This document shows, in pieces, positions 22,369 through 46,394 of a stretch of 64,000 bases of DNA. The notes under the pieces are model-generated. The model ran no database searches. It was not told the origin of the DNA and saw only the letters and a program-made list of their open reading frames with translations. The stretch's first letter is position 1. The number at the start of each line of letters is the position of its first letter. This DNA comes from Amphiura filiformis. Its lineage: Eukaryota > Echinodermata > Ophiuroidea > Amphilepidida > Amphiuridae. A program made the position numbers and the translations under genes. The DNA is taken from assembly GCF_039555335.1 (NCBI RefSeq), contig NW_027305494.1, positions 1,302,001 through 1,366,000 of the forward strand, read 5' to 3'.

Positions 22369-22408
22369 GACATAAAGTCATAATTCTTGAATTATGACTT
22401 TATGTCAA
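22369..22408. repeat. Near-perfect 40-bp palindrome
   Basis: GACATAAAGTCATAATTC is followed, with a 2-bp centre, by its reverse complement GAATTATGACTTTATGTC. No poly-T or coding context; unassigned. Confidence 0.75.
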
Positions 22409-22833
22409 ACTTTGCTCTGTTTACATACAAACACAACAAATTTGGCTGATTCCATTCAGGTGGAAGTTGTGACATGTGTATACATTACAAATATGCCAAA
22501 AAAATCAGGTTTGAAAAAAAAAAATAACCAAATTCATATTTATATAAGATCGTACATTATGACTTTCAGACTTTAATAAATCAAAGTTCAGTTCCAAATA
22601 AACGGTGTGTAGAATTAATGTTCTTTTAGCTTTTTTAATTGTATCACGGTTAGGCCTATCGACAAATGTGACAATTTTAAATAAAAAAGAAAACAAACCT
22701 AGAATCATATAAATGACTTTTTGTTAACACTGATTATGCCTACATTATCTCTGCACTGATATAGCAACAAAAAACTTTCATTTAATTCATACTAGCCCGA
22801 TTTACACTGGTCATGGAAATAGTAGATATCAAT

Positions 22834-23803: not shown

Positions 23804-24051
23804 TACTATGCACTGGTAAGCGACCTCAAAAGTTTGTATTGCTTTTATTGCATTATCAAAATCAATCGATTGAGATACCAAGTACTAGAGATGACTTGAG
23901 AGTCCCAGTTATGTAATAGATGCGGTTGAATGATGGCCCGAATGGTGGGCGGGGCTATTTTCCATATTTGGATTCATGACGTAACTCATCGAGTGGTTTG
24001 GTTTTGGTCACTGTTTATTATAATGAGGGTGCACTGCTGGGGGTAGCGACC

Positions 24052-24136
24052 CAATGTGTAAGGACCAACGCCTGACGGCGTTGATTATGGTGCTAAATAT
24101 TCCGTTGGTCCTGTATGGACTAGATCTTGGTGGTGC
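24052..24136 (-). repeat. Small structured dispersed repeat, copy 2 (inverted)
   Basis: Reverse complement of the 20668-20749 repeat with scattered substitutions. Its hairpin CAACGCC-TGAC-GGCGTTG (24066-24083) keeps full pairing although one stem pair differs from copy 1 (C-G there, A-T here). Confidence 0.6.
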
Positions 24137-24302
24137 AATGATAGAATAATGTAAAGCACTGAAATGAATCATAGCTGTTTAAGGTACCGATGACCAGGTT
24201 GGAAAGCTACCCTATATTCGAGCTATTCTGTTCACACAAACTTGAATTGTATATTTAGCTTCTGATTTTTCTCGTGCTTCGCGCATCTGTACCATAATAC
24301 TT

Positions 24303-24908
24303 AGGGGTGGTGCAATTTTAATCACGTGTACCCCTGGGTGGTAACATATGGGGGGGGGTTGGCAGGCCGAAAAATGGGGAGCAAACCTTTTGGGCAGGTT
24401 GATGGGGGAGGGGGTGGACAAGGGATTTTTGGCATGTCAGAAAAGGGGGGGACAAAGGTTTTTGGCACGTCGAGGGAGGGGGGGGGCAAAGATTTTTTGA
24501 CACGGCCAGGGGGGACGATTTTGGCAGACCATTTTGAGAATTCATCACCCCTAGATCTATACACAGTATTGCACTTCCCCTTATCTGCGATTTACTATAC
24601 TTCAAAAAATTACCCCGCATGTCAAAATAGAAATATGCGACATTGTTCGTACGGGTTAACGGGACAATTAGTACTAGTAGTGAGTTCCTTGTTCAGCATG
24701 TTCAGGGGAATTTCAAGATATTTTTATTGCAATAATTATGTGTACCCCGGGGTGGTGAATTCTCAAAGTGGTCTGCCAAAAATCGCTTGATCCCCGGCCC
24801 TTTCGACCTGCCAAACTGCTTGCCCTCCCCCTTTGGCCTGCCAAAAAATCTTTGCCCCCTATAATTCAACACCCCGGGGGTACACTACACATAATGCACC
24901 ACCCCCGA
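24303..24908. mobile_element. G/C-run inverted-repeat element
   Basis: GGGGTGGTGCAATTTTAATC (24303) and its approximate mirror ATAATGCACCACCCCC (to 24908) bound a segment where poly-G blocks on the left (ACCCCTGGGTGG, TTGGCAGGCCG) reappear as complementary C blocks on the right (CACCCCGGGGGTAC, CGACCTGCCAAAC). The ORFs crossing it on both strands are composition artefacts. Confidence 0.6.
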
Positions 24909-25042
24909 CTCGTAACCTTTCGCACCGTCATCGTGGTTTGCACTAAAGTACTAACACGACATATTTTGCAAATCTTGGTAATTGTGCACTTGAAAACTAA
25001 CCAATAAAATTATTGGTCGTAAATGGCGTATTAAAGAATATA

Positions 25043-25284
25043 ACATTAGGAAACGAATTTGGAGAAAACCTTCTGTTAATAAAATACTATGCTGAGCCAC
25101 CAGCCTGGGAGGCTCACGCTCCAGTAATTTCAGATGATTGAGCTCAGTAATACATCAAAGAATGTCTTCCAATTCATTAAAACAAATAGATAATCAGCTT
25201 ATCGGATTAAAAGCTTAGAGGGAAGGTCTTGCTGCTCAGAGACTGTTTGTAATTATCAGAAGGTTTTCTCCAAATTCTCTAATG
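25043..25284. mobile_element. Hairpin MITE, CATTAG..GAATTTGGAGAAAACC ends
   Basis: GAATTTGGAGAAAACCTTCT (25055) and AGAAGGTTTTCTCCAAATTC (to 25277) are exact inverted copies, extended by CATTAG and CTAATG. Non-coding. Confidence 0.8.
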
Positions 25285-25970
25285 ATTATACTGTGAGGAA
25301 AAATCCACCCATTTATACAGCGTCACCTTAACGTGCATGCTGTAATTCACAATGAAAGGGCGTGAAAACACCGTCTAAAGAGTCCAAATGGTATGCATGT
25401 ATTAATACACCTTCAAATGATATACATCGGTATACTCTAGTATATAAATAAATATTAATAATATAAATATTTAATATTGCTCCATAGACAATGTGTTGTA
25501 ATATTCAAATTTCAGAATATTTTTGCTAAACTATTAAATTAATCTGCAAGAAAATTCTTGTACATGAACATTACATGTATGTAGCCAGAGGTTTCCAGTG
25601 TTATAAAAATCTCAACTTTTGTTGTTGTTTTTGTTGAGAAAAGTGGGGGTGGGGGGAATGATGCTGTAGATCACGAAATGCCCTTTTAATAAGTTATATT
25701 CATCTTTTCGTATGTATTAAATTTACTTCCTCATATTATTTCATTTCATTTTATTCATTTAGAAATAATAATGATCGATGCAATTGGCTTATTATAAAAT
25801 CATGAATAGTTTTGATTATATTACCTCTGTGAACAACTGCATGGAATATTCTAGAATGTAAAATGACGCGTGTCATCCACACAGACGTAAAAAAGTGACA
25901 TCTTTTCTTTCAATGGTATGTTGGCAATATACATCCAGTTCATTTACCGTGTCCAGTGTTTTTTGTATAT
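25285..25970. other. AT-rich spacer, no gene
   Basis: No ORF, RNA gene or repeat recognised, apart from a GTTGTTGTTTTTGTTG run and a GTGGGGGTGGGGGG stretch near 25620-25658. Confidence 0.5.
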
Positions 25971-26162
25971 AATTAATTTTTACTGCACTGCAAAGTTCAT
26001 GAAAACGTTATTGCTAAGGTTGACGTTCAGATGTGCAATAAGCATAATAATGACATAATGTAATCACCGTTATTATAATGTTAATAAAAAAAATCAACAT
26101 AAACATTCCCTGGAATAATTATGTCAGTAAAAATGAATTGTTTTTCTTCTTCCGCAGCGTTA

Positions 26163-26358
26163 GGGACCGTTCACAAACACTTGTAGGGGGGGGGGTGATG
26201 CAAAAAATATTTCACCGCGAAATTTTTTCGTAAAGCATATAAACTTTCCAGGAAAAATTGTGGTCATTTTTTTCAGGGCCCCCCTTAGGAGGGTCAAAAA
26301 TTTTCAGGGACCCCTTTTTGCCTCAGGCACCCCCTAACAAGTGTTTGTGAACGACCCC
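26163..26358. mobile_element. TTA-flanked MITE, GGGACCGTTCACAAACACTT ends
   Basis: Starts GGGACCGTTCACAAACACTT and ends ACAAGTGTTTGTGAACGACC(CC). TTA is duplicated at 26160-26162 and 26359-26361. Block R2 gives the empty site: CCGCAGCGTTAGGG near 29500. A relative sits at 56278-56549. Harbinger-type by target duplication; non-coding. Confidence 0.9.
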
Positions 26359-26469
26359 TTAAGGCAATAGGCTTATTTAATTCCGCGGGATTCCAGTTGG
26401 TATTGCTTTGTATCCTGCAATATATTTAGGCATTCAACAGAGGAACGTGGAAAATTATCAAAATATTTG

Positions 26470-26741
26470 CCCAGCAAACACAAAACGTTTAAATGTCGAG
26501 TTATATAAAGGGTATAAAGACGTGTTAACATGGTTAATAACATTCAAAAAACATTTTTGCAAACAGAAATGTTATTTATGTGTTTAAAAAATATGTTATT
26601 TATGTGTTGAAAAAATATTTTGCAAAAATATTTGCCCAAACTAGTTCACAGTAACGTTTTAAAAACGTTTTCATGACCTTTATATAACTCGACATGTAAA
26701 TGTTATTAAAACGTTTTAAGAACATGTTTGTGTTTGCTAGG
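26470..26741. mobile_element. CAGCAAACACAAAACG-family MITE in R1
   Basis: CCCAGCAAACACAAAACG at the left and TTTGTGTTTGCTAGG at the right, with AACGTTTT cores inside. The same position in R2 holds a near-full copy (29603-29870); later blocks keep right halves only. Confidence 0.8.
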
Positions 26742-26818
26742 TTGATACTTAAAAAATGTCCGTCTTTCGTTCTTGAACATAAATACAACTAACTGAAGTA
26801 AACACCATACGTGTGTTG

Positions 26819-26948
26819 GAAAGATCTAGAAATGAGTCATTGGCTGGTCATGATCATCGACCTTTTAAATAGCTGATGCAAACAATATCGGAAGCGTTAT
26901 AATACGTGTCAGAAAAATCTAGAAAACCTCAGCTGAAAGCTATATAAA
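26819..26948 (+). promoter_or_regulatory. Stress-type promoter block 1 (HSE-like x2, AP-1, TATA)
   Basis: HSE-like GAAagATCtaGAA at 26819-26831, where inverted GAA units at 5-bp spacing have one mismatch in the middle unit. TGAGTCA (AP-1) at 26833-26839. A second GAAaaATCtaGAA at 26912-26924. TATATAAA at 26941-26948. This order and spacing resemble heat-shock gene promoters; activity is inferred. Confidence 0.5.
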
Positions 26949-27673
26949 GACCAGCAGAATCCAACTTTGGTCACCGCTCTCGTTGGTCACCGCTCACGTC
27001 GTTCACACCGTCTTTTTTCCCAAAGCTTTCCCGTCGGTTTTCACACCGATGGACCGGGCTGGCAGTAACAAGGTCTATAATGATCATGTCTACTGTTAGT
27101 TCCACCACTCTTGTGCACGTTTACACTGCACCCTAACCCTGGTGCGCTGCCTGGTATAAGCTCTGATCGAGGCGAGCTTTCTAGCTAGCCAACCAGGTCG
27201 TGTAGCACTCCAGTCTTTTAGCATCTCTCCCTTTTTTGCCTCACCATTTTTTCGGCTCTCCTACTGAAGACTGTGAAATCACATACCGACGGCGCCATCA
27301 CTTGATTGGTTACTCCAGTTTTGTGCTAGCCGGTGATTGGTCAGAAGTTCGAGGGCCCCCACTTGGCACATGACTGATATGCAGTGAGATTAACTGTCGT
27401 TTTGAGCCTGTAATTTATTATCGGTTTGATTTGGTAGTTATTCTAGTTGAAAATCTCATATCGGTTGCGTGCCGCATGTGGAGGCCTATCGATAATTTCA
27501 TCACTGACCTACAAGGACTACTCCCGGGGACTACCGAAGACTTTGGTGCAACATGGATGGACACATGTCATTTTGAACGAGCCGTTTACTGGACCAGATG
27601 ATGCCTCTAGGATATGCTAAATTCTAAGAATGATACTTTAATAAGTTCTATGGACTCAAAACAAGACCAGACA

Positions 27674-27679
27674 AATAAA
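27674..27679 (+). promoter_or_regulatory. Candidate polyA signal of repeat transcript 1
   Basis: AATAAA about 730 bp after the TATA box of promoter block 1. The hexamer is kept at the same place in the other full units (for example 30777-30782 and 32321-32326). Confidence 0.4.
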
Positions 27680-29602
27680 TCATGGCTACAGTAACATAGT
27701 TTTTGAAGTGACCGAACTCACAGTTAGGTGCACGGTCTGGTTTTATGCCCGGGTTTATGTTTCCAGTGTGATGTTTTGGACAGATAGTTTGGTGGAAATA
27801 ACAGGCACTCCTTTAACTATAAGAGTAAGACCCTGGGGTGGGCATTTAAAACACCAGTTATCCGGCCATGCATTCCTACAGTCTGACAAAATGGAAAATC
27901 ACACTATTTAAGGGGCATACCCAGGAAAAAATAATCAGTCAATGTCTTTACATATCAGGCCAGTCAAAATATGATATCACCCACCATTAATTGAAATAGA
28001 ATCCATTTCACATGCTTCCATCTCCCAAACAAATATCGAAAATCGCCGAAAATCCAAGTGGTGGAACAGTGGCTAATTTGCATAAATCCAAAATGGCCGC
28101 TTATCCACGGTGTGAAATTTCAGAGCTGGTCAAATCTTGTTAAAAACAATACTAATGTATTCCTCTCGTCATAAGAAAAAGTATAGTTTAACATATCTGA
28201 CGATATTCAGTTCTTGAGTTATGCGAAAAGGTCAAATTCCAGGGGACAAAAATTGAAATATTATCTGATTTTAAAAGAAAAAAAAAATGGTCTCAAATTG
28301 CTCCGCTTGCAAACAACATTTCAATAAAAGAATAGCTTGACATATCTCAGATGGTTTGGTACCTTGGTAACATGGCCAAAAAGATCAAAATCCATTGAGC
28401 CCAACTGGGGGGTGTCTGAGGGGATGTGCCCCATCATATAAGTGAGAAACCTTTGCAAAATGATGATCTAATTGAAGCCATTTGGTAAACAATTTTGGCA
28501 ATATTATTGTTTAAAAGATTGGTTTGAAAAGGCCGAACATTTCTGAAACGACAGCACATATGCCCGGCACATATGAAGCCTTTCGTGGACAAGATTTCCC
28601 TATTATCATGATTTTATTATTGTAGGACGTTGGTGTGTTGAACTTTAAGTGGCGGGTGTCAAAACCACTTGTTTAGGCCCTTATCCACTACACAGGACGT
28701 GTGACACGTGTCTGAAAAAGTGAGAAACTTTTGCAAAATGAAGTCCTAATTGAAGCCATTTGGTGGGCCATTTGGGCACTATTATTGTGTAAAATGTTAG
28801 TTTGAAAACCCCAAAAATTCAATTTGCAACATTTTAAATGTGGTCCACTGGTCTACTGACACATGATTGCATGAGACTCACGATTAGTGATATTTTTCGA
28901 ATTACATGAACAAACAGGGGATTAACTGATAATATGATCCACAATATAAATATTGACCCAGGTCTTACGAGAAGTGTCACCCCGGTGGGGAAATATTTTT
29001 AAAATATATTCTTTACTTTCTCCTCTTTCATTTGACACCACTCGGGGGTCATATCTTATTGGAATTTCGAGATATGAAAAGGATCCAAAATAGGATTATT
29101 GACCTGGGTCTTATGAGGAATGTCATCCCCGGTGGGGGGAAAACAATTTTGATACATTCTTTACTTCTTTCTTGTTCATTTGACACCACTCAGGGTTCAT
29201 ACCTTCTTGGCATTTTGAGATATGAATTATGAAAAGGACTCAAAATATGAATACTGACCCAGGTTTTATGAGAAGTGTTACCCCTGGTGAGGAAATTATT
29301 ATTTAAAAAAAAATTATGCACAGTGCAGTGTGCATTTTTTATAATATTATTTATTTTTATTGCTCTGCAAATTCATGATAACGTTATAAAGGTTGGCGTT
29401 CATAATGTGATCACCGTTATTTAATTTCAATCAAAATATCTTATTGTAGGCCTATACCCTAGTTATGTGAGTAAAAAAAATAATTGTTTTTCTTCTTCCG
29501 CAGCGTTAGGGCTAGGCTATAGGCTTATTTAAGTTTATCCTGTAAAATATATTTAGGCATTTAATTTCACAGAGGAACGTGGAACATTAAACAAAATATT
29601 TG

Positions 29603-29870
29603 CCCAGCAAACACAAAACGTTTTGAATAAAAATGTCGGGTTATAGGGTATAAAGACGTTTTAATAACATTTAAAAAACATTTTTGCAATCTTGATGCAA
29701 AACATTCTAAAACAGAATGGTTTTTATGTGTTGAAAAAATATTTTGCAAAAATGTTTGCCCGAAATATTTTACAATAACGTTTTAAAAACGTTTTCATGA
29801 CATTTGTATTACCCGACATTTAAATGTTATTAAAACGTTTTAAGAACATTAATTTTTTGTTTTCTCTGGG
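29603..29870. mobile_element. CAGCAAACACAAAACG-family MITE in R2
   Basis: CCCAGCAAACACAAAACG at 29603; the right end has decayed to TTTTCTCTGGG. It sits at the same place as the R1 copy, so the insertion predates the duplication. Confidence 0.75.
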
Positions 29871-29946
29871 TTGATACTTAAAAATATATTTTTGTCTTGA
29901 ACGTGAAAATGGTTCAATTGTTGTACACATGCGATAATACGTGTTA

Positions 29947-30081
29947 GAAAGATCGAGAAATGAGTCATCGGCTGGTCATGATCATCGACCTTTACTCACA
30001 TAGATGATGCAAATAATATCGGAAGCGTTTGTTAATACGTGTCAGAAAAATCTAGAAAACCTCGGCTGAAAGCTATATAAA
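29947..30081 (+). promoter_or_regulatory. Stress-type promoter block 2
   Basis: GAAagATCgaGAA 29947-29959, TGAGTCA 29961-29967, GAAaaATCtaGAA 30045-30057, TATATAAA 30074-30081. Confidence 0.5.
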
Positions 30082-31213
30082 GACCAGCAGAAGCCAATTT
30101 TGGTTACACCGCTCTCGTCGTTCACACCGTCTTTTTTCCCAAAGCTTTCCCGTCGGTTTTCACACCGATGGACCGGGCTGGCAGTAACAAGGTCTATGAT
30201 CATGTCTACTGTTAGTTCCAACACTCTTGTGCACGTTCCTAGAACTGCACCATAACCCTGGTGCGCGGCCTGGTATAAGCTTTGATCGAGGCGAGCTTTC
30301 TAGCTAGCCAACCAGGTTGTGTAGCACTCCAGGCTTTAGCAACTCACCGTTTTTTGCCTCACCTTTTTTCCGGCTCTCCTACTGAAGACTGTGAAATCAC
30401 ATACCGACGGCGCCATCACTTGATTGGTTACTCCAGTTTTGTGCTAGCCGGTGATTGGTCAGAAGTTCGAGGGCCCCCACTTGGCACATGACTGATATGC
30501 AGTGAGATTAACTGTCGTTTTGAGCCTGTAATTTATTATCGGTTTGATTTGGTAGTTATTCTAGTTGAAAATCTCATATCTGTTTCGTGCCGCATGTGGA
30601 GGCCTATCGATAATTTCATCACTGACCTACAAGGACTACCGAAGACTTTGGTACACCATGGATGGACACGTCATTTTGACCGAGCAGTTTACTGGACCAG
30701 ATGATGCCTCTAGGATATGCTAAATTCTAAGAATGATACTTTAATAAGTTCTATGGACTCAAAACAAGACCAGACTAATAAATCAAGGCTACAGTAACAT
30801 AGTTTTTGAACTGACTGAACCTACAGCTAGATGCACGGTCTGGTTTTATGTTTCCAGTGTGATGTTTTGGACAGAGAGTTTGGTGGAAATAACAGGCACT
30901 CCCTTTAACTATAAGAGTAAGACCCTGGGGTGGGCATTTAAACACCAGCTATCCGGCCATGCTTTCCTACAGTCTGACAAAATGGGAAATCACACTATTT
31001 AGGGGGCATACCCCCGGAAAAAATAATCAGTAAATGTCTTTACATATCAGGCCAGTCAAACTATGATATCACCCACCACTAATTGAAATAGAATCCATTT
31101 CACATGCGTCCATCTCCCAAAAACCATATCAAAAGTCACCGAAAATCCAAGTAGTGAAACAGTGGCTAATTTATGTGTATACCCACACACATAGTCAGTC
31201 AGTCAGTCACAAC

Positions 31214-31223
31214 ATTTCCCTAT

Positions 31224-31306
<83 letters not shown>

Positions 31307-31308
31307 TT
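31214..31308. repeat. (TTTA)n microsatellite in R2
   Basis: About 24 TTTA units. Shorter tracts stand at the same place in R3 (35745-35788) and R4 (40245-40288), so this one expanded or the others contracted after duplication. The Leu-Phe-Ile-Tyr ORFs over it are artefacts. Confidence 0.95.
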
Positions 31309-31504
31309 TGTTGAAAAATATTTTGCAAAATGTTTGCCCAAAATATATTACAATAACGTTTTAAAACGTTTTCATGACCTTTATATAACTCGACATTTAA
31401 ATGTTATTAAAACGTTTTGAATAAAGGTTTTAAGAACATTTTTGTGTTTGCTGGGTTGACACTAAAAAATGTCTGTCTTCCTTTCTTGAACCATACGTAT
31501 GTTA

Positions 31505-31628
31505 GAAAGATCTAGAAATGAGTCATCAGTTGGTCATGATCATCGAGCTGATGCAACTAATATCGGAAGCGTTATAGGCTAATACGTGTCAGAAAAATCT
31601 AGAAAACCTCAGCTAAAAGCTATATAAA
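31505..31628 (+). promoter_or_regulatory. Stress-type promoter block 3
   Basis: GAAagATCtaGAA 31505-31517, TGAGTCA 31519-31525, GAAaaATCtaGAA 31592-31604, TATATAAA 31621-31628. AATAAA follows at 32321-32326. Confidence 0.5.
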
Positions 31629-32386
31629 GACAAGCAGAAGCCAACTGTGGTTACACCGCTCCCGTCGTTCACACCGTCTTTTTTCCCAAAGCTTTCCAGT
31701 CGGTTTTCACACCGATGGACCGGGCTGGCAGTAACAAGGTCTATGATCATGTCTACTGTTAGTTCCACAACTCTTGTGCACGTTCCTAGGACTGCACCAT
31801 AACCCTGGTGCGCGGCCTGGTATAAGCTTTGATCGAGGCGAGCTTTCTAGCTAGCCGACCAGGTCGTGTAGCACTCCAGGCTTTTAGCAACTCACCCTTT
31901 TTTGCCTCACCCTTTTTCGGCTCTCCTACTGAAGACTGTGAAATCACATACCGACGGCGCCATCACTTGATTGGTTACTCCAGTTTTGTGCTAGCCGGTG
32001 ATTGGTCAGAAGTTCGAGGGCCCCCACTTGACACATGACTGATATGCATTGAGATTAACTGTCGTTTTGAGCCTGTAATTTATTATCGGTTTGATTTGGT
32101 AGTTATTCTAGTTGAAAATCTCATATCTGTTGAGTGCCGCATGTGGAGGCCTATCGATAATTTCATCACTGACCTACAAGGACTACCGAAGACTTTGGTG
32201 CACCATGGATGGACCCGTCATTTTGCGAGCAGTTTACTGGACCAGATGATGCCTCTGGATATGCTAAATTCTAAGACTGATACTTTAATAAGTTCTATGG
32301 ACTCAAAACAAGACCAGACTAATAAATCAAGGCTACAGTAATATATTTTTTGAACTGACTGAACTCACAGCCCGGACTCACAGATA

Positions 32387-32662
32387 CAATCCAGGAAAAA
32401 AATAGTTGGCACACTTGCACTAAACAATGGAAATGCGTGCCCTATCAAAATTGGAGAGGCGAGTGAAACATGCATGCAACATAGGGCCTATGTGAAGTAC
32501 AGACTCCCCCTATATATCTCACCCTTCCCCACTCCCCATCTTTCAATGTTGGAGGGTCTCACGGACCTGTTGACAACATGGCTTGGTCCAATATTGAATT
32601 GGGGGCAGGGGAGAGATATACCAAAAGACAGGCAAAGTGTGCCAACCTTTTTTCCTTGATAG
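32387..32662. mobile_element. TA-flanked MITE in subunit B of R2
   Basis: Ends CAATCCAGGAAAAAAATAG and (reverse strand) CTATCAAGGAAAAAAAGG, each followed by GTTGGCACACTT. TA flanks both sides. Subunits A lack it (empty site: ACAGCTAGATGCACGG). Orthologous copies lie in R3 (36879-37158) and R4 (41381-41658). Confidence 0.8.
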
Positions 32663-32863
32663 TAGGTGCACGGTCTGGTTTCCAGTGTGATGTTTTGGAC
32701 AGAGAGTTTGGTGGAAATAACAGGCACTCCCTTTAACTATAAGAGTAAGACCCTGGGGTGGGCATTTAAACACCAGCTATCCGGCCATGCTTTCCTACAG
32801 TCTGACAAAATGGAAAATCACACTATTTAGGGGGCATACCCCCGGAAAAAATGATCAGTAAAT

Positions 32864-33292
32864 GTGACGTGTCATGTCAAAAGGAGACACTTTTGGGGAA
32901 GGTTAGCAATTTTGAGGTTTTTACATATCTTAAATACGGAGATATTTTGCTCCATAACGCCGTTTTCCCCAATGAAATTGGACATTCCTAAGCAAAGATA
33001 TTGAGTTCGTAAGCTATGGTATTATAAAATTGGAAATGGAGATATCGGCCTTTAAATATTTTATTGACAATGTTGAGAGTAGGAATTACCTTGAAAATGT
33101 CTGAAAAAATACAAGATGCCAGTTATATTCCGGTCTGAAACTATCAGACAATAATTTTAACATTACTAACATCACAAATTCGCAACAAATCCAAATTGTG
33201 AAAAAATCAACCCCGCGCCCCGGGCAGATTTTTGGCTATTTCTCCATTTACGATCCTGCCCAAAAGTGTCTGATTTAGACATGACACATCAC
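32864..33292. mobile_element. MITE with GTGACGTGTCATGTC ends in subunit B of R2
   Basis: GTGACGTGTCATGTC at the left and GACATGACACATCAC at the right, followed inward by GACACTTTTGGG-type sequence. AAAT is duplicated at 32860-32863 and 33293-33296. The empty site CAGTAAATGTCTTTAC is present in subunits A (for example near 31033). Confidence 0.85.
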
Positions 33293-34488
33293 AAATGTCT
33301 TTACATATCAGGCCAGTCAAAATATGATATCACCCACCATTAATTGAAATAGAATCCATGTCACATGCGTCCATCTCCCAAAAACCATATCAAAAGTCAC
33401 CGAAAATCCAAGTAGTGGAACAGTGGCTAATTTGCATAAATCCAAAATGGCCGTTTATGCACGGGGTGAAATTTCAGAGCTGGTCAAATCTAGTTAAAAA
33501 CCATACCAATGTATTCCTCTCGTCATAAGAAAAAGTATAGTTTAACATATCTGACGATATACAGTTCTTGAGTTATGGAAAAAGGTCAAATGTTAAAATT
33601 TGGATTCCAGAGGAAAAAAAAAAAAAATTATTTGATTTTAATTTTTTTAAATGGTCTCAGATATTGCTCCGCTTGCAAACAACATTTCAATAAAAGAATA
33701 GCTTGACATATCTCAGGTGGTTTGTTACCGGATACCTTGGTAACATGGCCAAAAAGATCAAAATCCATTGAGCCCTATTGTTGACCTTGACCTAGCCATT
33801 TGGTGGACCATTTTAGCAATATTATTGTTTAAAAGTTTGGTTTGAAAAAACCGAACGTTTCTGAAACGACAGCCTTGTGTGATACGACCTAAAACCAGTG
33901 ATATTTTTCGTATTGCATGAACAAACAGGGGATAACTAATAATATGAAAAGGATCCACAATATAAATATTGACCCAGGTCTTACGAGAGGTGTCACCCCG
34001 GTGGGGAAATTATTATTTTTTTATTATATTCTTTACTTCTTTCTCTTTCATTTGACACCACTCGGGGGAATTATTATTTTATAATGCACAGTGCAGTGTG
34101 CATTATTTATATTATTAATTTTTATTGCTCTGCACAGTTCATGAAAACGTTATATTGCTAATGTTGACGTTCATAATGTGATCACCGTTATTTATAATTT
34201 TAGTCAAAATAATTATGTTATTGTAGGCCTACCCTGGAATAATTATGTGAATAAAAATTACTAGTAATTGTTTTAAAACAGAATGATATTTATGTGTTGA
34301 AAAAATATTTGCCAAAATGTGTGCCCAAAATATATTACAATAACGTTTTAAAACGTTTTCATGACCTTTACATAACTCGACATTTAATGTTATTAAAACG
34401 TTTTGAATAAAGGTTTTGAAAACGTTTTGTGTTTGCTGGGTTGATACTAAAAATGTCTGTCTTTCTTTCTTGAACCATAAGTATGTTA

Positions 34489-34620
34489 GAAAGATCTAGA
34501 AATGAGTCATCGGCTGGTCATGATCATCGACCTTTTACATAGCTGATGCAAACAATATCGGAAGCGTTATAATACGTGTCAGAAAAATCTAGAAAACCTC
34601 AGCTGAAAGCTATATATAAA
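34489..34620 (+). promoter_or_regulatory. Stress-type promoter block 4
   Basis: GAAagATCtaGAA 34489-34501, TGAGTCA 34503-34509, GAAaaATCtaGAA 34582-34594, TATATATAAA 34611-34620 (one extra TA compared with blocks 1-3, 5 and 7). Confidence 0.5.
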
Positions 34621-35747
34621 GACCAGCAGAATCCAACTTTGGTCACACCGCTCTCGTCGTCCACATCGTCTTTTTTCCAAAGCTTACCCGTCGGTTTTCA
34701 CACCGATGGACCCTCACCGGGCTGGCAGTAACAAGGTCTATACTGATCATGTTTACTGTTTGTTTCACTACTCTTGTGCATGTTCCTAACACTGCACCAT
34801 AACCCTGGTGCGCGGCCTGGCGCTTTGATCGAGGCCCGGTATCGAGGCGATCGGCGAGTTTTCTAGCTAGCCAACCAGGTCGTGTAGCACTCCTTTTTTC
34901 GGCTCTCCTACTGAAGACTGTGAAATCACATACCGACGGCGCCATCACTTTATTGGTTACTTCAGTTTTGTGCTAGCCGGTGATTGGTCAGAAGTTCGAG
35001 GGCCCCACTTGGCACATGGCTGATATGCAGTGAGATTAACTGTCGTTTTGAGCCTGTAATTTATTATCGGTTTGATTTGAAAGTTATTCTAGTTTAAAAT
35101 CTCATATCTGTTGCGTGCCGCCTGTGGAGGCCTATCGATAATTTCATCACTGACCTACAAGGACTACCGAAGACTTTGGTACACCATGGATGGACACGTC
35201 ATTTTGACCGAGCAGTTTACTGGACCAGATGATGCCTCTAGGATATGCTAAATTCTAAGAATGATACTTTAATAAGTTCTATGGACTCAAAACAAGACCA
35301 GACTAATAAATCAAGGCTACAGTAACATAGTTTTTGAACTGACTGAACCTACAGCTAGATGCACGGTCTGGTTTTATGTTTCCAGTGTGATGTTTTGGAC
35401 AGAGAGTTTGGTGGAAATAACAGGCACTCCCTTTAACTATAAGAGTAAGACCCTGGGGTGGGCATTTAAACACCAGCTATCCGGCCATGCTTTCCTACAG
35501 TCTGACAAAATGGAAAATCACACTATTTAGGGGCATACCCCGGAAAAATAATCAGTAAATGTCTTTACATATCGGGCCAGTCAAACTATGATATCACCCA
35601 CCACTAATTGAAATAGAATCCATTTCACATGCGTCCATCTCCCAAAAATCATATCAAACGTCACCGAAAATCCAAGTAGTGAAACAGTGGCTAATTTATG
35701 TGTATACCCACACACATAGTCAGTCAGTCAGTCACAACATTTCCTAT

Positions 35748-35786
<39 letters not shown>

Positions 35787-35984
35787 TTTGTTGAAAAAAT
35801 ATTTTGCAAAAATGTTTGCCCAAAATATATTACAATAACGTTTTAAAACGTTTTCATGACCTTTATATAACTCGACATTTAAATGTTATTAAAACGTTTT
35901 GAATAAAGGTTTTAAGAACATTTTGTGTTTGCTGGGTTGACACTAAAAATGTCTGTCTTCCTTTCTTGAACCATACGTATGTTA

Positions 35985-36122
35985 GAAAGATCTAGAAATG
36001 AGTCATCAGTTGGTCATGATCATCGACCTTTACTCACATAGCTGATGCAACTAATATCGGAAGCGTTATAGGCTAATACGTGCCAGAAAAATCTAGAAAA
36101 CGTCAGCTAAAAGCTATATAAA
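35985..36122 (+). promoter_or_regulatory. Stress-type promoter block 5
   Basis: GAAagATCtaGAA 35985-35997, TGAGTCA just after, GAAaaATCtaGAA 36086-36098, TATATAAA 36115-36122. Confidence 0.5.
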
Positions 36123-36878
36123 GACAAGCAGAAGCCAACTTTGGTTACACCGCTCCCGTCGTTCACACCGTCTTTTTTCCCAAAGCTTTCCAGTCGGTTT
36201 TCACACCGATGGACCGGGCTGGCAGTAATAAGGTCTATGATCATGTCTACTGTTAGTTCCACAACTCTTGTGCACGTTCCTAGGACTGCACCATAACCCT
36301 GGTGCGCGGCCTGGTATAAGCTTTGATCGAGGCGAGCTTTCTAGCTAGCCGACCAGGTCGTGTAGCACTCCAGGCTTTTAGCAACTCACCCTTTTTGCCT
36401 CACCCTTTTCGGCTCTCCTACTGAAGACTGTGAAATCACATACCGACGGCGCCATCACTTGATTGGTTACTCCAGTTTTGTGCTAGCCGGTGATTGGTCA
36501 GAAGTTCGAGGGCCCCCACTTGGCACATGACTGATATGCAGTGAGATTAACTGTCGTTTTGAGCCTGTAATTTATTATCGGTTTGATTTGGTAGTTATTC
36601 TAGTTGAAAATCTCATATCTGTTGAGTGCCGCATGTGGAGGCCTATCGATAATTTCATCACTGACCTACAAGGACTACCGAAGACTTTGGTGCACCATGG
36701 ATGGACCCGTCATTTTGCGAGCAGTTTACTGGACCAGATGATGCCTCTGGATATGCTAAATTCTAAGACTGATACTTTAATAAGTTCTATGGACTCAAAA
36801 CAAGACCAGACTAATAAATCAAGGCTACAGTAATATATTTTTTGAACTGACTGAACTCACAGCCCGGACTCACAGCTA

Positions 36879-37158
36879 CAATCCAGGAAAAAAATAGTTG
36901 GCACACTTGCACTAAACAATGGAAATGCGTGCCCTATCAAAATTGGAGAGGCGAGTGAAACATGCATGCAACATAGGGCCTATGTGAAGTACAGACTCCC
37001 CCTATATATCTCACCCTTCCCCACTCCCCATCTTTCAATGTTGGAGGGTCTCACGGACCTGTTGACAACATGGCTTGGTCCAATATTGAATTGGGGGAGC
37101 GGGGGCAGAGATATACCAAAAGACAGGCAAAGTGTGCCAACCTTTTTTTCCTTGATAG
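36879..37158. mobile_element. TA-flanked MITE in subunit B of R3
   Basis: Orthologous insertion to 32387-32662, with the same TA flanks and CAATCCAGG/CCTTGATAG ends. Confidence 0.8.
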
Positions 37159-37359
37159 TAGGTGCACGGTCTGGTTTCCAGTGTGATGTTTTGGACAGAG
37201 AGTTTGGTGGAAATAACAGGCACTCCCTTTAACTATAAGAGTAAGACCCTGGGGTGGGCATTTAAACACCAGCTATCCGGCCATGCTTTCCTACAGTCTG
37301 ACAAAATGGAAAATCACACTATTTAGGGGGCATGCCCCCGGAAAAAATGATCAGTAAAT

Positions 37360-37787
37360 GTGACGTGTCATGTCAAAAGGAGACACTTTTGGGGAAGGTT
37401 AGCAATTTTGAGGTTTTTACATATCTTAAATACGGAGATATTTTGCTCCATAACGCCGTTTTCCCCAATGAAATTGGACATTCCTAAGCAAAGATATTGA
37501 GTTCGTAAGCTATGGTATTATAAAATTGGAAATGGAGATATCGGCCTTTAAATATTTTATTGACAATGTTGAGAGTAGGAATTACCTTGAAAAATGTCTG
37601 AAAAAATACAAGATGCCAGTTATATTCCGGTCTGAAACTATCAGACAATAATTTTAACATTACTAACATCACAAATTCGCAACAAATCCAAATTGTGAAA
37701 AATCAACCCGCGCCCCGGGCAGATTTTTGGCTATTTCTCCATTTACGATCCTGCCCAAAAGTGTCTGATTTAGACATGACACATCAC
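37360..37787. mobile_element. GTGACGTGTCATGTC MITE in subunit B of R3
   Basis: Orthologous to 32864-33292, with AAAT on both sides. Confidence 0.85.
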
Positions 37788-38984
37788 AAATGTCTTTACA
37801 TATCAGGCCAGTCAAAATATGATATCACCCACCATTAATTGAAATAGAATCCATGTCACATGCGTCCATCTCCCAAAAACCATATCAAAAGTCACCGAAA
37901 ATCCAAGTAGTGGAACAGTGGCTAATTTGCATAAATCCAAAATGGCCGTTTATGCACGGGGTGAAATTTCAGAGCTGGTCAAATCTAGTTAAAAACCATA
38001 CCAATGTATTCCTCTCGTCATAAGAAAAAGTATAGTTTAACATATCTGACGATATACAGTTCTTGAGTTATGGAAAAAGGTCAAATGTTAAAATTTGGAT
38101 TCCTGGGGACAAAAATTGAAAAATTATTTGATTTTAATTTTTTTTAAATTGTCTCAGATATTGCTCCGCTTGCAAACAACATTTCAATAAAAGAATAGCT
38201 TGACATATCTCAGGTGGTTTGTTACCGGATAACTTAGTAACATGGCAAAAAAGATCAAAATCCATTGAGCAATATTGTTGACCTTGACCTAGCCATTTGG
38301 TGGACCATTTTAGCAATATTATTGTTTAAAAGTTTGGTTTGAAAAAACCGAACGTTTCTGAAACGACAGCCTTGTGTGATACGACCTAAAACCAGTGATA
38401 TTTTTCGTATTGCATGAACAAACAGGGGATAACTAATAATATGAAAAGGATCCACAATATAAATATTGACCCAGGTCTTACGAGAGGTGTCACCCCGGTG
38501 GGGAAATTATTATTTTTTTATTATATTCTTTACTTCTTTCTCTTTCATTTGACACCACTCGGGGGAATTATTATTTTATAATGCACAGTGCAGTGTGCAT
38601 TTTTATATTATTAATTTTATTGCTCTGCACAGTTCATGAAAACGTTATATTGCTAATGTTGACGTTCATAATGTGATCACCGTTATTTATAATTTTAGTC
38701 AAAATAATTATGTTATTGTAGGCCTACCCTGGAATAATTATGTGAATAAAAATTACTAGTAATTGTTTTAAAACAGAATGATATTTATGTGTTGAAAAAA
38801 TATTTGCCAAAAATGTGTGCCCAAAATATATTACAATAACGTTTTAAAACGTTTTCATGACCTTTACATAACTCGACATTTAATGTTATTAAAACGTTTT
38901 GAATAAAGGTTTTAAGAACATTTTGTGTTTGCTGGGTTGATACTAAAAATGTCTGTCTTTCTTTCTTGAACCATAAGTATGTTA

Positions 38985-39116
38985 GAAAGATCTAGAAATG
39001 AGTCATCGGCTGGTCATGATCATCGACCTTTTACATAGCTGATGCAAACAATATCGGAAGCGTTATAATACGTGTCAGAAAAATCTAGAAAACCTCAGCT
39101 GAAAGCTATATATAAA
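38985..39116 (+). promoter_or_regulatory. Stress-type promoter block 6
   Basis: GAAagATCtaGAA 38985-38997, TGAGTCA after it, GAAaaATCtaGAA 39078-39090, TATATATAAA 39107-39116. Confidence 0.5.
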
Positions 39117-40246
39117 GACCAGCAGAATCCAACTTTGGTCACACCGCTCTCGTCGTCCACATCGTCTTTTTCCAAAGCTTACCCGTCGGTTTTCACACCG
39201 ATGGACCCTCACCGGGCTGGCAGTAACAAGGTCTATACTGATCATGTTTACTGTTTGTTTCACTACTCTTGTGCATGTTCCTAACACTGCACCATAACCC
39301 TGGTGCGCGGCCTGGCGCTTTGATCGAGGCCCGGGATCGAGGCGATCGGCGAGTTTTCTAGCTAGCCAACCAGGTCGTGTAGCACTCCTTTTTTCGGCTC
39401 TCCTACTGAAGACTGTGAAATCACATACCGACGGCGCCATCACTTGATTGGTTACTCCAGCTTTGTGCTAGCCGGTGATTGGTCAGAAGTTCGAGGGCCC
39501 CCACTTGGCACATGGCTGATATGCAGTGAGATTAACTGTCGTTTTGAGCCTGTAATTTATTATCGGTTTGATTTGAAAGTTATTCTAGTTTAAAATCTCA
39601 TATCTGTTGCGTGCCGCCTGTGGAGGCCTATCGATAATTTCATCACTGACCTACAAGGACTACCGAAGACTTTGGTACACCATGGATGGACACGTCATTT
39701 TGACCGAGCAGTTTACTGGACCAGATGATGCCTCTAGGATATGCTAAATTCTAAGAATGATACTTTAATAAGTTCTATGGACTCAAAACAAGACCAGACT
39801 AATAAATCAAGGCTACAGTAACATAGTTTTTGAACTGACTGAACCTACAGCTAGATGCACGGTCTGGTTTTATGTTTCCAGTGTGATGTTTTGGACAGAG
39901 AGTTTGGTGGAAATAACAGGCACTCCCTTTAACTATAAGAGTAAGACCCTGGGGTGGGCATTTAAACACCAGCTATCCGGCCATGCTTTCCTACAGTCTG
40001 ACAAAATGGAAAATCACACTATTTAGGGGGCATACCCCGGAAAAAATAATCAGTAAATGTCTTTACATATCAGGCCAGTCAAACTATGATATCACCCACC
40101 ACTAATTGAAATAGAATCCATTTCACATGCGTCCATCTCCCAAAAATCATATCAAACGTCACCGAAAATCCAAGTAGTGAAACAGTGGCTAATTTATGTG
40201 TATACCCACACACATAGTCAGTCAGTCAGTCACAACATTTCCCTAT

Positions 40247-40285
<39 letters not shown>

Positions 40286-40485
40286 TTTGTTGAAAAAATA
40301 TTTTGCAAAAATGTTTGCCCAAAATATATTACAATAACGTTTTAAAACGTTTTCATGACCTTTATATAACTCGACATTTAAATGTTATTAAAACGTTTTG
40401 AATAAAGGTTTTAAGAACATTTTTGTGTTTGCTGGGTTGACACTAAAAAATGTCTGTCTTCCTTTCTTGAACCATACGTATGTTA

Positions 40486-40623
40486 GAAAGATCTAGAAAT
40501 GAGTCATCAGTTGGTCATGATCATCGACCTTTACTCACATAGCTGATGCAACTAATATCGGAAGCGTTATAGGCTAATACGTGCCAGAAAAATCTAGAAA
40601 ACGTCAGCTAAAAGCTATATAAA
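40486..40623 (+). promoter_or_regulatory. Stress-type promoter block 7
   Basis: GAAagATCtaGAA 40486-40498, TGAGTCA after it, a second GAAaaATCtaGAA near 40587-40599, TATATAAA 40616-40623. Confidence 0.5.
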
Positions 40624-41380
40624 GACAAGCAGAAGCCAACTTTGGTTACACCGCTCCCGTCGTTCACACCGTCTTTTTTCCCAAAGCTTTCCAGTCGGTT
40701 TTCACACCGATGGACCGGGCTGGCAGTAACAAGGTCTATGCTCATGTCTACTGTTAGTTCCACAACTCTTGCACGTTCCTAGGACTGCACCATAACCCTG
40801 GTGCGCGGCCTGGTATAAGCTTTGATCGAGGCGAGCTTTCTAGCTAGCCGACCAGGTCGTGTAGCACTCCAGGCTTTTAGCAACTCCCCCTTGTTTGCCT
40901 CACCCTTTTTCGGCTCTCCTACTGAAGACTGTGAAATCACATACCGACGGCGCCATCACTTGATTGGTTACTCCAGTTTTGTGCTAGCCGGTGATTGGTC
41001 AGAAGTTCGAGGGCCCCCACTTGGCACATGACTGATATGCAGTGAGATTAACTGTCGTTTTGAGCCTGTAATTTATTATCGGTTTGATTTGGTAGTTATT
41101 CTAGTTGAAAATCTCATATCTGTTGAGTGCCGCATGTGGAGGCCTATCGATAATTTCATCACTGACCTACAAGGACTACCGAAGACTTTGGTGCACCATG
41201 GATGGACCCGTCATTTTGCGAGCAGTTTACTGGACCAGATGATGCCTCTGGATATGCTAAATTCTAAGACTGATACTTTAATAAGTTCTATGGACTCAAA
41301 ACAAGACCAGACTAATAAATCAAGGCTACAGTAATATATTTTTTTGAACTGACTGAACTCACAGCCCGGACTCACAGCTA

Positions 41381-41658
41381 CAATCCAGGAAAAAAATAGT
41401 TGGCACACTTGCACTAAACAATGGAAATGCGTGCCCTATCAAAATTGGAGAGGCGAGTGAAACATGCATGCAACATAGGGCCTATGTGAAGTACAGACTC
41501 CCCTATATATCTCACCTTCCCCACTCCCCATCTTTCAATGTTGGAGGGTCTCACGGACCTGTTGACAACATGGCTTGGTCCAATATTGAATTGGGGGAGC
41601 GGGGGCAGAGATATACCAAAAGACAGGCAAAGTGTGCCAACCTTTTTTTCCTTGATAG
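41381..41658. mobile_element. TA-flanked MITE in subunit B of R4
   Basis: Orthologous to 32387-32662. Confidence 0.8.
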
Positions 41659-41819
41659 TAGGTGCACGGTCTGGTTTCCAGTGTGATGTTTTGGACAGAG
41701 AGTTTGGTGGAAATAACAGGCACTCCCTTTAACTATCCGGCCATGCTTTCCTACAGTCTGACAAAATGGAAAATCACACTATTTAGGGGGCATACCCCCG
41801 GAAAAAATGATCAGTAAAT

Positions 41820-42247
41820 GTGACGTGTCATGTCAAAAGGAGACACTTTTGGGCAGGTTAGCAATTTTGAGGTTTTTACATATTTTAAATACGGAGATAT
41901 TTTGCTCCATAACGCCGTTTTCCCCAATGAAATTGGACATTCCTAAGCAAAGATATTGAGTTCGTAAGCTATGGTATTGTAAAATTGGAAATGGAGATAT
42001 CGGCCTTTAAAAATTTTATTGACAATGTTGAGAGTAGGAATTACCTTGAAAAATGTCTGAAAAAATACAAGATGCCAGTTATATTCCGGTCTGAAACTAT
42101 CAGACAATAATTTTAACATTACTAACATCACAAATTCGCAACAAATCCAAATTGTGAAAAAATCAACCCCGCGCCCGGGCAGATTTTTGGCTATTTCTCC
42201 ATTTACGATCCTGCCCAAAAGTGTCTGATTTAGACATGACACATCAC
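41820..42247. mobile_element. GTGACGTGTCATGTC MITE in subunit B of R4
   Basis: Orthologous to 32864-33292. Confidence 0.85.
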
Positions 42248-43074
42248 AAATGTCTTTACATATCAGGCCAGTCAAAATATGGTATCACCCACCATTAATT
42301 GAAATAGAATCCATGTCACATGCGTCCATCTCCCAAAAACCATATCAAAAGTCACCGAAAATCCAAGTAGTGGAACAGTGGCTAATTTGCATAAATCCAA
42401 AATGGCCGTTTATGCACGGGGTGAAATTTCAGAGCTGGTCAAATCTAGCATGTCTAGTTAAAAACCATACCAATGTATTCCTCTCGTCATAAGAAAAAGT
42501 ATAGTTTAACATATCTGACGATATACAGTTCTTGAGTTATGGAAAAAGGTCAAATGTTAAAATTTGGATTCCAGGGGACAAAAATTGAAAAATTATTTGA
42601 TTTTAATTTTTTTTTAAATGGTCTCAGATATTGCTCCGCTTGCAAACAACATTTCAATAAAAGAATAGCTTGACATATCTCAGGTGGTTTGTTACCGGAT
42701 ACCTTGGTAACATGGCCAAAAAGATCAAAATCCATTGAGCCCTATTGTTGACCTTGACCTAGCCATTTGGTGGACCATTTTAGCAATATTATTGTTTAAA
42801 AGTTTGGTTTGAAAAAAACCGAACGTTTCTGAAACGACAGCCTTGTGTGATACGACCTAAAACCAGTGATATTTTTCGTATTGCATGAACAAACAGGGGA
42901 TAACTAATAATATGAAAAGGATCCACAATATAAATATTGACCCAGGTCTTACGAGAGGTGTCACCCCGGTGGGGAAAATATTATTTTTTTATTATATTCT
43001 TTACTTCTTTCTCTTTCATTTGACACCACTCGGGGAATTATTATTTTATAATGCACAGTGCAGTGTGCATTTTT

Positions 43075-44275
43075 TATATTATTAATTTTTATTGCTCTGC
43101 ACAGTTCATGAAAACGTTATATTGCTAATGTTGACGTTCATAATGTGATCACCGTTATTTATAATTTTAGTCAAAATAATTATGTTATTGTAGGCCTACC
43201 CTGGAATAATTATGTGAATAAAAATTACTAGTAATTGTTTTAAAACAGAATGATATTTGTGTTGAAAAAATATTTGCCAAAAATGTGTGCCCAAAATATA
43301 TTACAATAACGTTTTAAAACGTTTTCATGACCTTTACATAACTCGACATTTAATGTTATTAAAACGTTTTGAATAAAGGTTTTAAGAACATTTTTGTGTT
43401 TGCTGGGTTGATACTAAAAAATGTCTGTCTTTCTTTCTTGAACCATAAGTATGTTAGAAAGATCTAGAAATGAGTCATCGGCTGGTCATGATCATCGACC
43501 TTTTACATAGCTGATGCAAACAATATCGGAAGCGTTATAATACGTGTCAGAAAAATCTAGAAAACCTCAGCTGAAAGCTATATATAAAGACCAGCAGAAT
43601 CCAACTTTGGTCACACCGCTCTCGTCGTCCACATCGTCTTTTTTCCAAAGCTTACCCGTCGGTTTTCACACCGATGGACCCTCACCGGGCTGGCAGTAAC
43701 AAGGTCTATACTGATCATGTTTACTGTTTGTTTCACTACTCTTGTGCATGTTCCTAACACTGCACCATAACCCTGGTGCGCGGCCTGGCGCTTTGATCGA
43801 GGCCCGGGATGGAGGCGATCGGCGAGTTGTCTAGCTAGCCAACCAGGTCGTGTAGCACTCCTTTTTTCGGCTCTCCTACTGAAGACTGTGAAATCACATA
43901 CCGACGGCGCCATCACTTGATTGGTTACTCCAGTTTTGTGCTAGCCGGTGATTGGTCAGAAGTTCGAGGGCCCCCACTTGGCACATGGCTGATATGCAGT
44001 GAGATTAACTGTCGTTTTGAGCCTGTAATTTATTATCGGTTTGATTTGAAAGTTATTCTAGTTTAAAATCTCATAGGCCTATCTGTTGCGTGCCGCCTGT
44101 GGAGGCCTATCGACAATTTCATCACTGACCTACAAGGACTACCGAAGACTTTGGTGCACCATGGATGGACCCGTCATTTTGAACGAGCAGTTTACTGGAT
44201 GGACCAGATGAGCTCAGATGATGCCTCTAGGATATGCTAAATTCTAAGAATGATACTTAAAAGTTCTATGGACTG
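43075..44275 (+). repeat. Tandem array block R5, truncated
   Basis: 5' module, MITE right half, promoter block 8 and most of the 0.7-kb segment. It breaks off at TTCTATGGACT, before the AATAAA, and passes into unrelated sequence. It carries a short duplication near 44200 (GGATGGACCAGATGAGCTCAG). Confidence 0.85.
43457..43588 (+). promoter_or_regulatory. Stress-type promoter block 8
   Basis: GAAagATCtaGAA 43457-43469, TGAGTCA after it, a second GAAaaATCtaGAA about 90 bp on, TATATATAAA at 43579-43588. The polyA hexamer found in other units is lost by truncation. Confidence 0.5.
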
Positions 44276-44394
44276 AAATGAAAAATTCACATTTTTTTTC
44301 AGGGCCCCACTTTCGAACCTAAAATTATTTCCAGCCCCTCCCCTTTTTGGCAATGAAAATTGTACGTCAACCCCATAGAAAATACAGTAAGCCA

Positions 44395-44906
44395 AAAAAT
44401 TAAGGTACCAGTTATGTTCACCCCTTGCATATCCTAAACAAAGACAGATATGTCATAATTGGAACCAGCAGCCAATATCTGCATCTTTTAGCTCGAATTT
44501 AAGACCTCGTTTGTTGAAATTGTTCAAGAAATAAAGACACGACGATCCAAAAATCCATGGAAGATTCCAATGTAAAAGTTGCAGTTTGCTACATTGCGTG
44601 CCCTATTGATTTGCACACAATGCGTTCACGAACAAGAGAACCAGCGCCGTGCTTCCATTGATTACCACGTTAAAATTAGCGTCGTGCTTTCATTGATTAG
44701 AACACGAAAGTGCAAGTTTTGATTTCGTTTCTTTATTAGGTTTTAGACCACCGTTTCTTTAATTTTCAACCAATTTCAACAAATGAGGTCTTAAATCAGA
44801 GCTAAAGAGTACAGGTATTGGCTGTTTGTTTTAATTTTGACACATTTTCTTTATATAGGATATACAGGGGTGAACACAACTGGTACCTTAATTTTTTGGC
44901 TTACTG
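44395..44906. mobile_element. Tc1/mariner-type MITE
   Basis: Ends CAGTAAGCCAAAAAATTAAG and CTTAATTTTTTGGCTTACTG are inverted, flanked by TA on both sides. CAGT termini plus a TA target fit Tc1/mariner. Next to the ends GTACCAGT and TGTTCACCCC are also mirrored. No transposase. Confidence 0.85.
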
Positions 44907-44909
44907 TAG

Positions 44910-45690
44910 TGTAAACTCATGTTCTACAGAAAAATTAAGCTGATTTTTTTTAAAGGCCCCAAAGGCGTAGTTCGGGGGGGGATAAATCAGGCCCAATATT
45001 TTGTCAGGTGGGATGGTCCATCATTGGTAGTTCACAGCATCTTACGAATGGTAGTGAGCTTTGGCAAAAATTGCATTGCTCAATTCATAGCGAGCGTGTA
45101 GAAGAATTAAAATATCACAGATAGGCCTATACTTTTATAGGTGCTGCGGTTCTTGAGTTACGTTGTGAAGAGGGCTGAAACAACAACACTTTTGTAAAAC
45201 GTACATAACTAATTAACAACAATAAATTAAGCAAGTTTGCAGAGTATACGATTTGTAGAATGAACTTTCGCAAAACATCAAGGTGTTAATTTTCAATACT
45301 ATATTGATCTAGATAATGAAACTCGATTTTTAGGTTGCTTCGACCAACAATACCTCGTGTAGCCTGTTACATAAAAAAATATTCAATTAATGATACAGAT
45401 TGTACAAAGTGTTTGGACATACTCAGTAACTAATAGATTTTGAAAACAAGATATGAAGATAAATATAAATTGGTGAAAAAATAAGGGGAGACCAGGCTGG
45501 GCCTCGCCTTAGCAAATTTGATAATATAGGCCTATCATGATAAGTGTGAGATCAATCGTGAATCGGTCAAACAAAGAAATAAATTATTTTGTGGTTTTAA
45601 ATATTACATTTGTATAAGTCATAAAATTTAGAATTAATGATCAGTATACCTGTAACCTACTCATGATGTGCCCGATGAAAGCTGATTTGC
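44910..45690. other. Intergenic, nothing recognised
   Basis: AT-rich. No coding, RNA or repeat feature recognised beyond a poly-G patch near 44976. ORF 44919-45101 has no recognisable features. Confidence 0.5.
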
Positions 45691-45692
45691 AG

Positions 45693-46241: not shown

Positions 46242-46394
46242 AGTTGCAGTTTTTTTCTGCAACATCACCATGCGACATGTCCTATACAACTGGCATGGAG
46301 CTTGTCCTTTTTTAAGGACTCTTCTTGTTGAAGGCATGTACTGTTTTAAAGGTCAAAACCAGGTCAAAACGATGTAAACAAAAACGTACACAGA

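Follow-up and report, generated by a model that had tools for sequence, protein, structure and literature searches.

Introduction

What is encoded by a locus that repeats a heat-shock-like promoter block eight times, each ahead of a body with no long conserved open reading frame (ORF)? The question is raised by a 64,000-nucleotide stretch of the genome of the ophiuroid Amphiura filiformis (NCBI RefSeq assembly GCF_039555335.1, contig NW_027305494.1, positions 1,302,001 to 1,366,000), here called the window and numbered from its first letter, which holds a tandem array of eight head-to-tail units, U1 to U8. An earlier note on this DNA suggested that the array may make a family of roughly 0.7-kb polyadenylated transcripts under the heat-shock factor HSF and the activator AP-1, with solo long terminal repeats (LTRs) or non-autonomous retroelements as the alternative. 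We find that the array is real and non-random, and that it is probably a family of noncoding RNA genes of the stress type, repeated in tandem, whose transcription, induction and function we infer. The more specific proposal, that the units are RNA polymerase II (Pol II) genes, driven by HSF and AP-1, for polyadenylated and largely noncoding RNA of about 0.7 kb, has in our judgement about an even chance of being right.

Promoter blocks and predicted transcripts

All eight blocks carry, in the same order and orientation, GAAnnATCnnGAA, TGAGTCA, a second GAAnnATCnnGAA and the TATA box TATATAAA, an arrangement that the earlier note had described and that motif scans confirmed at the same places in every block. 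The TATA boxes start at 26941, 30074, 31621, 34613, 36115, 39109, 40616 and 43581 and are embedded in TATATATAAA in copies 4, 6 and 8. Measured from them, the first GAAnnATCnnGAA starts at -116 to -130 and the second at -29 or -31, and TGAGTCA begins 1 nt past the end of the first. Compared with the heat-shock element (HSE) consensus GAAnnTTCnnGAA, GAAnnATCnnGAA matches 8 of 9 core bases, and we refer to it as HSE-like. It occurs 16 times in the window (0.6 expected), always inside the eight blocks; because the copies are duplicates, the independent evidence amounts to one promoter with two sites.

The HSF motif scan that had been proposed as a check gave a divided answer. Single 8/9 sites stand at chance level: the window has 41, of which 20 fall outside the array, and about 19 are expected per 64 kb; both 9/9 sites of the window likewise fall outside the array. 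The pair, on the other hand, is more than chance would readily give: elsewhere in the window, none of the 45,371 stretches of 150 bp has two non-overlapping HSE-like sites (Poisson P for such a pair per 150 bp, 0.001-0.002). The number of TGAGTCA motifs shows no enrichment (9, with 6.9 expected and 9 reached in 27 of 100 shuffles), and the motif is notable only for its fixed position, while TATATAAA is enriched in the window (29 against 9.0 expected), partly because an element upstream of U1, described below, holds further copies. Judged from these motifs, the promoter reading is plausible.

The AATAAA signal expected about 0.7 kb downstream was found 692-733 bp past the TATA box in seven of the eight copies; in copy 8 the homology stops at 44278, ahead of the shared AATAAA, and the next one lies at +949, within unrelated flank. 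If transcription starts some 28 bp downstream of each TATA box, these signals delimit the predicted transcripts listed in Table 1. Their G+C content is 46%, against 28% in the 5' flank and 37% in the 3' tail, and the body of all eight units holds a pair of ATTGG boxes at a distance of exactly 31 bp which, as reverse CCAAT boxes, could be a second promoter or an enhancer element. A shorter product, a Pol III small RNA ending at a T-run at about +58 to +72, was also considered: a T5-T6 run occurs there in all eight units, but similarity among the copies runs on for hundreds of bases and AATAAA lies downstream.

Table 1. Features of the array, with positions in the window; transcript limits are predictions
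Feature	Position	Strand	Basis or remark
Whole array, eight head-to-tail units	25959..44278	+	self-BLAST, TATA spacings, 5' flank homology
MITE-like element upstream of U1	26473..26738		inverted 12-bp arms AGCAAACACAAA/TTTGTGTTTGCT; alignment
U1 promoter block (HSE-like, TGAGTCA, HSE-like, TATATAAA)	26819..26948	+	motif scans
U2 promoter block	29947..30081	+	motif scans
U3 promoter block	31505..31628	+	motif scans
U4 promoter block	34489..34620	+	motif scans
U5 promoter block	35985..36122	+	motif scans
U6 promoter block	38985..39116	+	motif scans
U7 promoter block	40486..40623	+	motif scans
U8 promoter block	43457..43588	+	motif scans
U1 predicted transcript	26969..27699	+	AATAAA +733
U2 predicted transcript	30102..30802	+	AATAAA +703
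U3 predicted transcript	31649..32345	+	AATAAA +700
U4 predicted transcript	34641..35329	+	AATAAA +692
U5 predicted transcript	36143..36837	+	AATAAA +698
U6 predicted transcript	39137..39825	+	AATAAA +692
U7 predicted transcript	40644..41338	+	AATAAA +698
U8 transcript region	43609..44278	+	homology ends before common AATAAA
U1 first-ATG small ORF, 16 codons	27049..27099	+	ORF comparison
U2 first-ATG small ORF, 15 codons	30168..30215	+	ORF comparison
Stretch of 210 bp, no U1-U2 substitution	30371..30580	+	alignment; holds both ATTGG boxes

Architecture of the array

The array is a segmental tandem duplication. Its TATA boxes are spaced 3133, 1547, 2992, 1502, 2994, 1507 and 2965 bp apart, the layout being that of an older unit U1 (about 3 kb), a repeated pair of about 4.5 kb (1.5 + 3.0 kb) and a final truncated U8, and in self-BLAST 29705-39787 matches 34271-44278 at 95.9%. 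Upstream of U1 lies an element resembling a miniature inverted-repeat transposable element (MITE), pieces derived from which precede the other units in the alignment; the short units are joined via a TATT microsatellite within it, and the 5' flank above it is common to U1, U2 and U4. The duplicated unit therefore exceeds the promoter and transcript segment at both ends. The U1 5' flank also contains a second inverted-repeat element (26168-26353, with 17-bp perfect arms CGTTCACAAACACTTGT), which is absent from the matching U2 flank.

Coding potential

The earlier statement that the array has no conserved ORF holds for long frames: of the 11 stop-to-stop ORFs of at least 120 amino acids in the window, two lie in the array, each in a single copy. 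A Pfam search of the six frames of 26941-34500 gave nothing above cut-off and one weak hit, DUF5768, whose 14.6 bits (E 0.026) fall short of the required 27.2. What that statement missed is a small frame from the first ATG, open in all eight copies, which spans 15 codons in U2, U3, U5 and U7 and 16 in U1; U4, U6 and U8 have lost the stop and reach 27. Both indels within it are multiples of 3 (6 and 3), which is true of only 2 of the 20 in the rest of the transcript (P 0.026), a suggestive hint that its reading frame has been kept. The same bases also form a predicted hairpin, and further short ORFs occur in the predicted transcript, for example one near +640 that is kept in seven of eight copies.

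Divergence between copies

Promoter and body fall into four lineages (U1, U2, U3/5/7 and U4/6/8), with inter-lineage identities of 94.7-96.4%; values of the U2-U8 and U1-U7 type, 95.1-95.9, lie in the same range. Substitutions were compared by region in the three pairs of U1, U2 and U4, and for the tail in U1 versus U2, U3 and U7. The 5' flank shows 20.7, 15.8 and 10.3%, the MITE-derived part 11.1, 11.3 and 14.5%, the promoter 8.4, 3.1 and 6.9% and the predicted transcript 3.4, 4.5 and 3.6%; the values then rise from 4.4 and 5.9% (two pairs) in the approximately 210 bp after the transcript to 6.9-9.5% in the 3' tail beyond. The 5' flank differs from the transcript in all three pairs (P 1e-12, 4e-6 and 0.0013), and the tail differs from it at P 3e-5 in a comparison of mixed pairs (U1/U3 for the tail, U1/U2 for the transcript). 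Purifying selection would be expected to give such a minimum over the transcript, and gene conversion would give it equally, so that the pattern may reflect either constraint or conversion; mutation rates, too, may differ between the regions, since their G+C content does. Within the body, U1 and U2 share a substitution-free run of 210 bp (P 0.0012), and U1 and U3 one of 118 bp in part of the same stretch (P 0.017). Because the longest run lies elsewhere in the remaining four of the six pairs tested (P 0.10, 0.22, 5e-5 and 0.023), this block may be due to chance, constraint or conversion.

RNA families and folding

Every unit folds more stably in the sense than in the antisense direction, with z scores of -1.4 to -4.6 against +0.45 to -1.1 (in U2, -4.03 against 0.16) and a strand gap of 1.9 to 4.6; among 24 background stretches, a gap of at least 2 occurs in five, the largest being 3.6. 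Rfam gave no match at gathering score in the whole window, and at E up to 1 in 29500-34000 only two at chance level (JPX_1, E 0.71; mir-722, E 0.77); an ARAGORN search for tRNAs with the bacterial code was likewise empty. Within 27100-27125, U1 reads CCCTAACCCT, a telomere-like decamer, where the other seven copies read CCATAACCCT, and a short hairpin can be drawn there by eye. A telomerase RNA, considered on account of this motif, was dropped given CCATAACCCT in seven of eight copies and the empty Rfam search.

Weighing the stress-RNA reading

For the proposal that the units yield polyadenylated transcripts of about 0.7 kb from a stress promoter speak the paired HSE-like sites, the AP-1 site and the TATA box, in one order throughout, the AATAAA signal in seven of eight copies, the low divergence of the transcript and its higher G+C content, the empty Rfam, tRNA and Pfam searches and the better folding of the sense strand. 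Promoter variation speaks for it as well: of 119 gap-free promoter columns 12 vary, all 12 outside the 33 columns of the motifs (P 0.016), and the sole change inside an HSE affects a spacer base. Several observations weigh against it. The HSE-like sites are each one base short of perfect. The test on promoter columns is to some extent circular, the motifs having been selected for being common to the copies. The promoter (3.1-8.4% substitutions) is no more conserved than the transcript, and the roughly 210 bp past the transcript are equally conserved (4.4% against 3.4%, P 0.53). Between U2 and U4, 380 bp over the 3' end are identical without a break (P 5e-5), and gene conversion can mimic constraint. 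As for folding, a z of -3 or lower on one strand or the other occurs in 10 of the 24 background stretches, which weakens the signal, and RNAalifold found compensatory changes in none of 192 pairs, with 11 pairs changed on one side and 12 broken or gapped in one copy; we do not claim a conserved structure.

Were the reading of the units as stress RNA genes correct, stress would activate HSF and AP-1, the former binding the two HSE-like sites and the latter TGAGTCA; the start would be fixed by the TATA box, and each intact copy would give one polyadenylated RNA of about 0.7 kb. Eight promoters firing at once would deliver a fast and large burst of RNA, copy number lifting output as at other amplified stress loci. 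What matters might be the RNA itself, acting as noncoding stress RNA, or else translation of the short first ORF as such, and the similarity of the bodies would be kept by selection or gene conversion. One may go further and picture an undescribed animal stress RNA, folded, polyadenylated and about 0.7 kb long, with a tiny translated ORF and an hsr-omega-like action of independent origin, scaled by gene number rather than by internal repeats; this extension is speculative, and we think it rather doubtful.

Alternative explanations

The tandem layout, the recent duplication (about 96% over 10 kb), the lack of a long ORF and the truncation of the last copy would also be expected of a functionless by-product, in which a captured heat-shock promoter was amplified in tandem and its stress-inducible RNA has no role; a parallel would be the alpha-beta repeats of the Drosophila hsp70 locus 87C, whose RNA is not known to have one. 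Divergence is, however, lowest over the transcript instead of uniform, and the first ORF is open in all eight copies; six-frame scans of the flanks (22000-26940 and 44279-49260 only) revealed no hsp gene. Such a by-product seems unlikely, if worth keeping in mind. The open first frame leads instead to a family of micropeptide genes, whose product would be the 15-27 amino acid peptide and whose remaining sequence would be untranslated, and the in-frame indels agree with this. Yet the frame is very short, the predicted hairpin on the same bases may be what is kept, one lineage (three of the eight copies) loses the stop and extends to 27 codons, and the few changes available for a test include an amino-acid change (in U7); we regard a micropeptide family as distinctly unlikely.

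A TATA box and AATAAA within one repeated segment would also suit a retroelement with a stress promoter, left as solo LTRs or non-autonomous, and stress-responsive elements in transposons are known, as in the Helitrons of Caenorhabditis described in PMC6927752. This alternative, which the earlier note had left standing, is weakened here and appears improbable, because homology passes both ends of the promoter-transcript segment, reaching the MITE-like element and 5' flank on the upstream side and the tail on the other, and because the units form a segmental duplication in tandem. Nor were terminal TG..CA boundaries seen in the alignment or a retroelement domain found by Pfam in the six frames of 26941-34500, and AATAAA lies 0.7 kb from the TATA box. 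That the units belong to an ordinary spliced protein-coding gene, as its first and last exons or as pseudogene copies, is highly improbable: nothing specific favours it, while in seven of eight copies the promoter lies a mere 0.7 kb ahead of AATAAA, Pfam gave no match above cut-off in the same six frames and 18 of 20 indels outside the first ORF are not multiples of 3. In searches for relatives elsewhere, an exact 20-mer was without match in a collection of viral contigs and an exact 35-mer in one of genome contigs, and a distant blastn search with 30000-30850 found no match among phages; as few or no animal genomes are in these collections, the negatives say little.

Comparison with known systems

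The earlier note had likened the array in idea to hsr-omega and satellite III. The hsr-omega RNAs are described as having, in exon 1, a potentially translatable ORF of 23-27 amino acids, divergent in sequence with a conserved layout (PMC9865238), and hsr-omega as a single-copy gene (PMC9032817). The array shares with it a heat-shock-type promoter, with two 8/9 trimers near -120 and -29 in all eight units, a largely noncoding polyadenylated RNA (predicted here), the lack of a long conserved ORF and a short ORF, here of 15-27 codons. It differs in comprising eight tandem genes with no intron evident, whereas hsr-omega is one gene with an intron of about 700 nt and 280-bp tandem repeats; Tandem Repeats Finder listed no internal array of that kind in the predicted transcripts. 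We therefore rejected an hsr-omega homolog, given eight tandem units without the internal 280-bp repeat array.

Human satellite III (SATIII), according to PMC9032817, is HSE-bearing repeated DNA that Pol II transcribes under HSF1, a short-motif satellite giving RNAs of 2-5 kb or more. Repeated DNA with HSEs, or HSE-like sites here, is common to both, but SATIII forms megabase arrays of a short motif, whereas the units here are discrete, each with its own promoter and, in seven of eight, a poly(A) signal. With a unit of 1.5-3 kb in eight copies, a satellite of the SATIII type was likewise rejected. At the Drosophila hsp70 locus 87C, the alpha-beta repeats are tandem units with an hsp70-derived promoter that give noncoding RNA on heat shock. 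They resemble the present array as tandem units with a heat-shock-type promoter; no hsp70 turned up in the flanks scanned here, and the transcript seems more conserved than its flanks. Helitrons spread HSEs in Caenorhabditis (PMC6927752) and are thus HSE-carrying repeated DNA as well, but they are dispersed DNA transposons, whereas this is a local tandem array with its MITE-like element outside the promoter. On these comparisons, the array appears to resemble hsr-omega in promoter type and small ORF and to be organised otherwise, with homology to none of these systems demonstrated. The open-licence literature, searched by title and the start of the abstract, gave no description of an array of this kind from echinoderms or comparable animals, which is a weak statement.

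Surroundings in the window

Four of five ORFs of the window submitted to Pfam were matched: a large single-exon NACHT-LRR gene of the NLR type (4533-7985), a methyltransferase piece (50034-50432), a rhodopsin-type G protein-coupled receptor (53212-54348) and a Kelch protein on the minus strand (59341-60282). These genes mark the DNA as that of an animal. The 44-bp unit ATTAATGTAGTTTTACCAGGACACGGGTTACATTGCAAGATAGC forms a tandem array of about 120 copies at 8849-14137, with a 132-bp higher-order period. Strong foldback DNA is present at 17448-18776 (inverted copies 17448-17751 and 18503-18776) and in a second region at about 55500-56170; at 17500 and at 55500 either strand folds with a z of -18 to -20. 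Degenerate telomere-like CTAACC repeats lie at 50991-51066, 58257-58335 and 61848-61937, and a segment of about 1.9 kb occurs in two diverged direct copies (57056-58963 and 60685-62587, 74-75% identity).

Significance

If RNAs are indeed made from these units under stress, the array would be a dedicated, amplified noncoding stress locus outside flies and primates. Its discrete gene units could be counted, deleted and compared among copies, and could thereby help to separate action through sequence, through structure, through translation of a tiny ORF, or only through titration of HSF and RNA-binding proteins.

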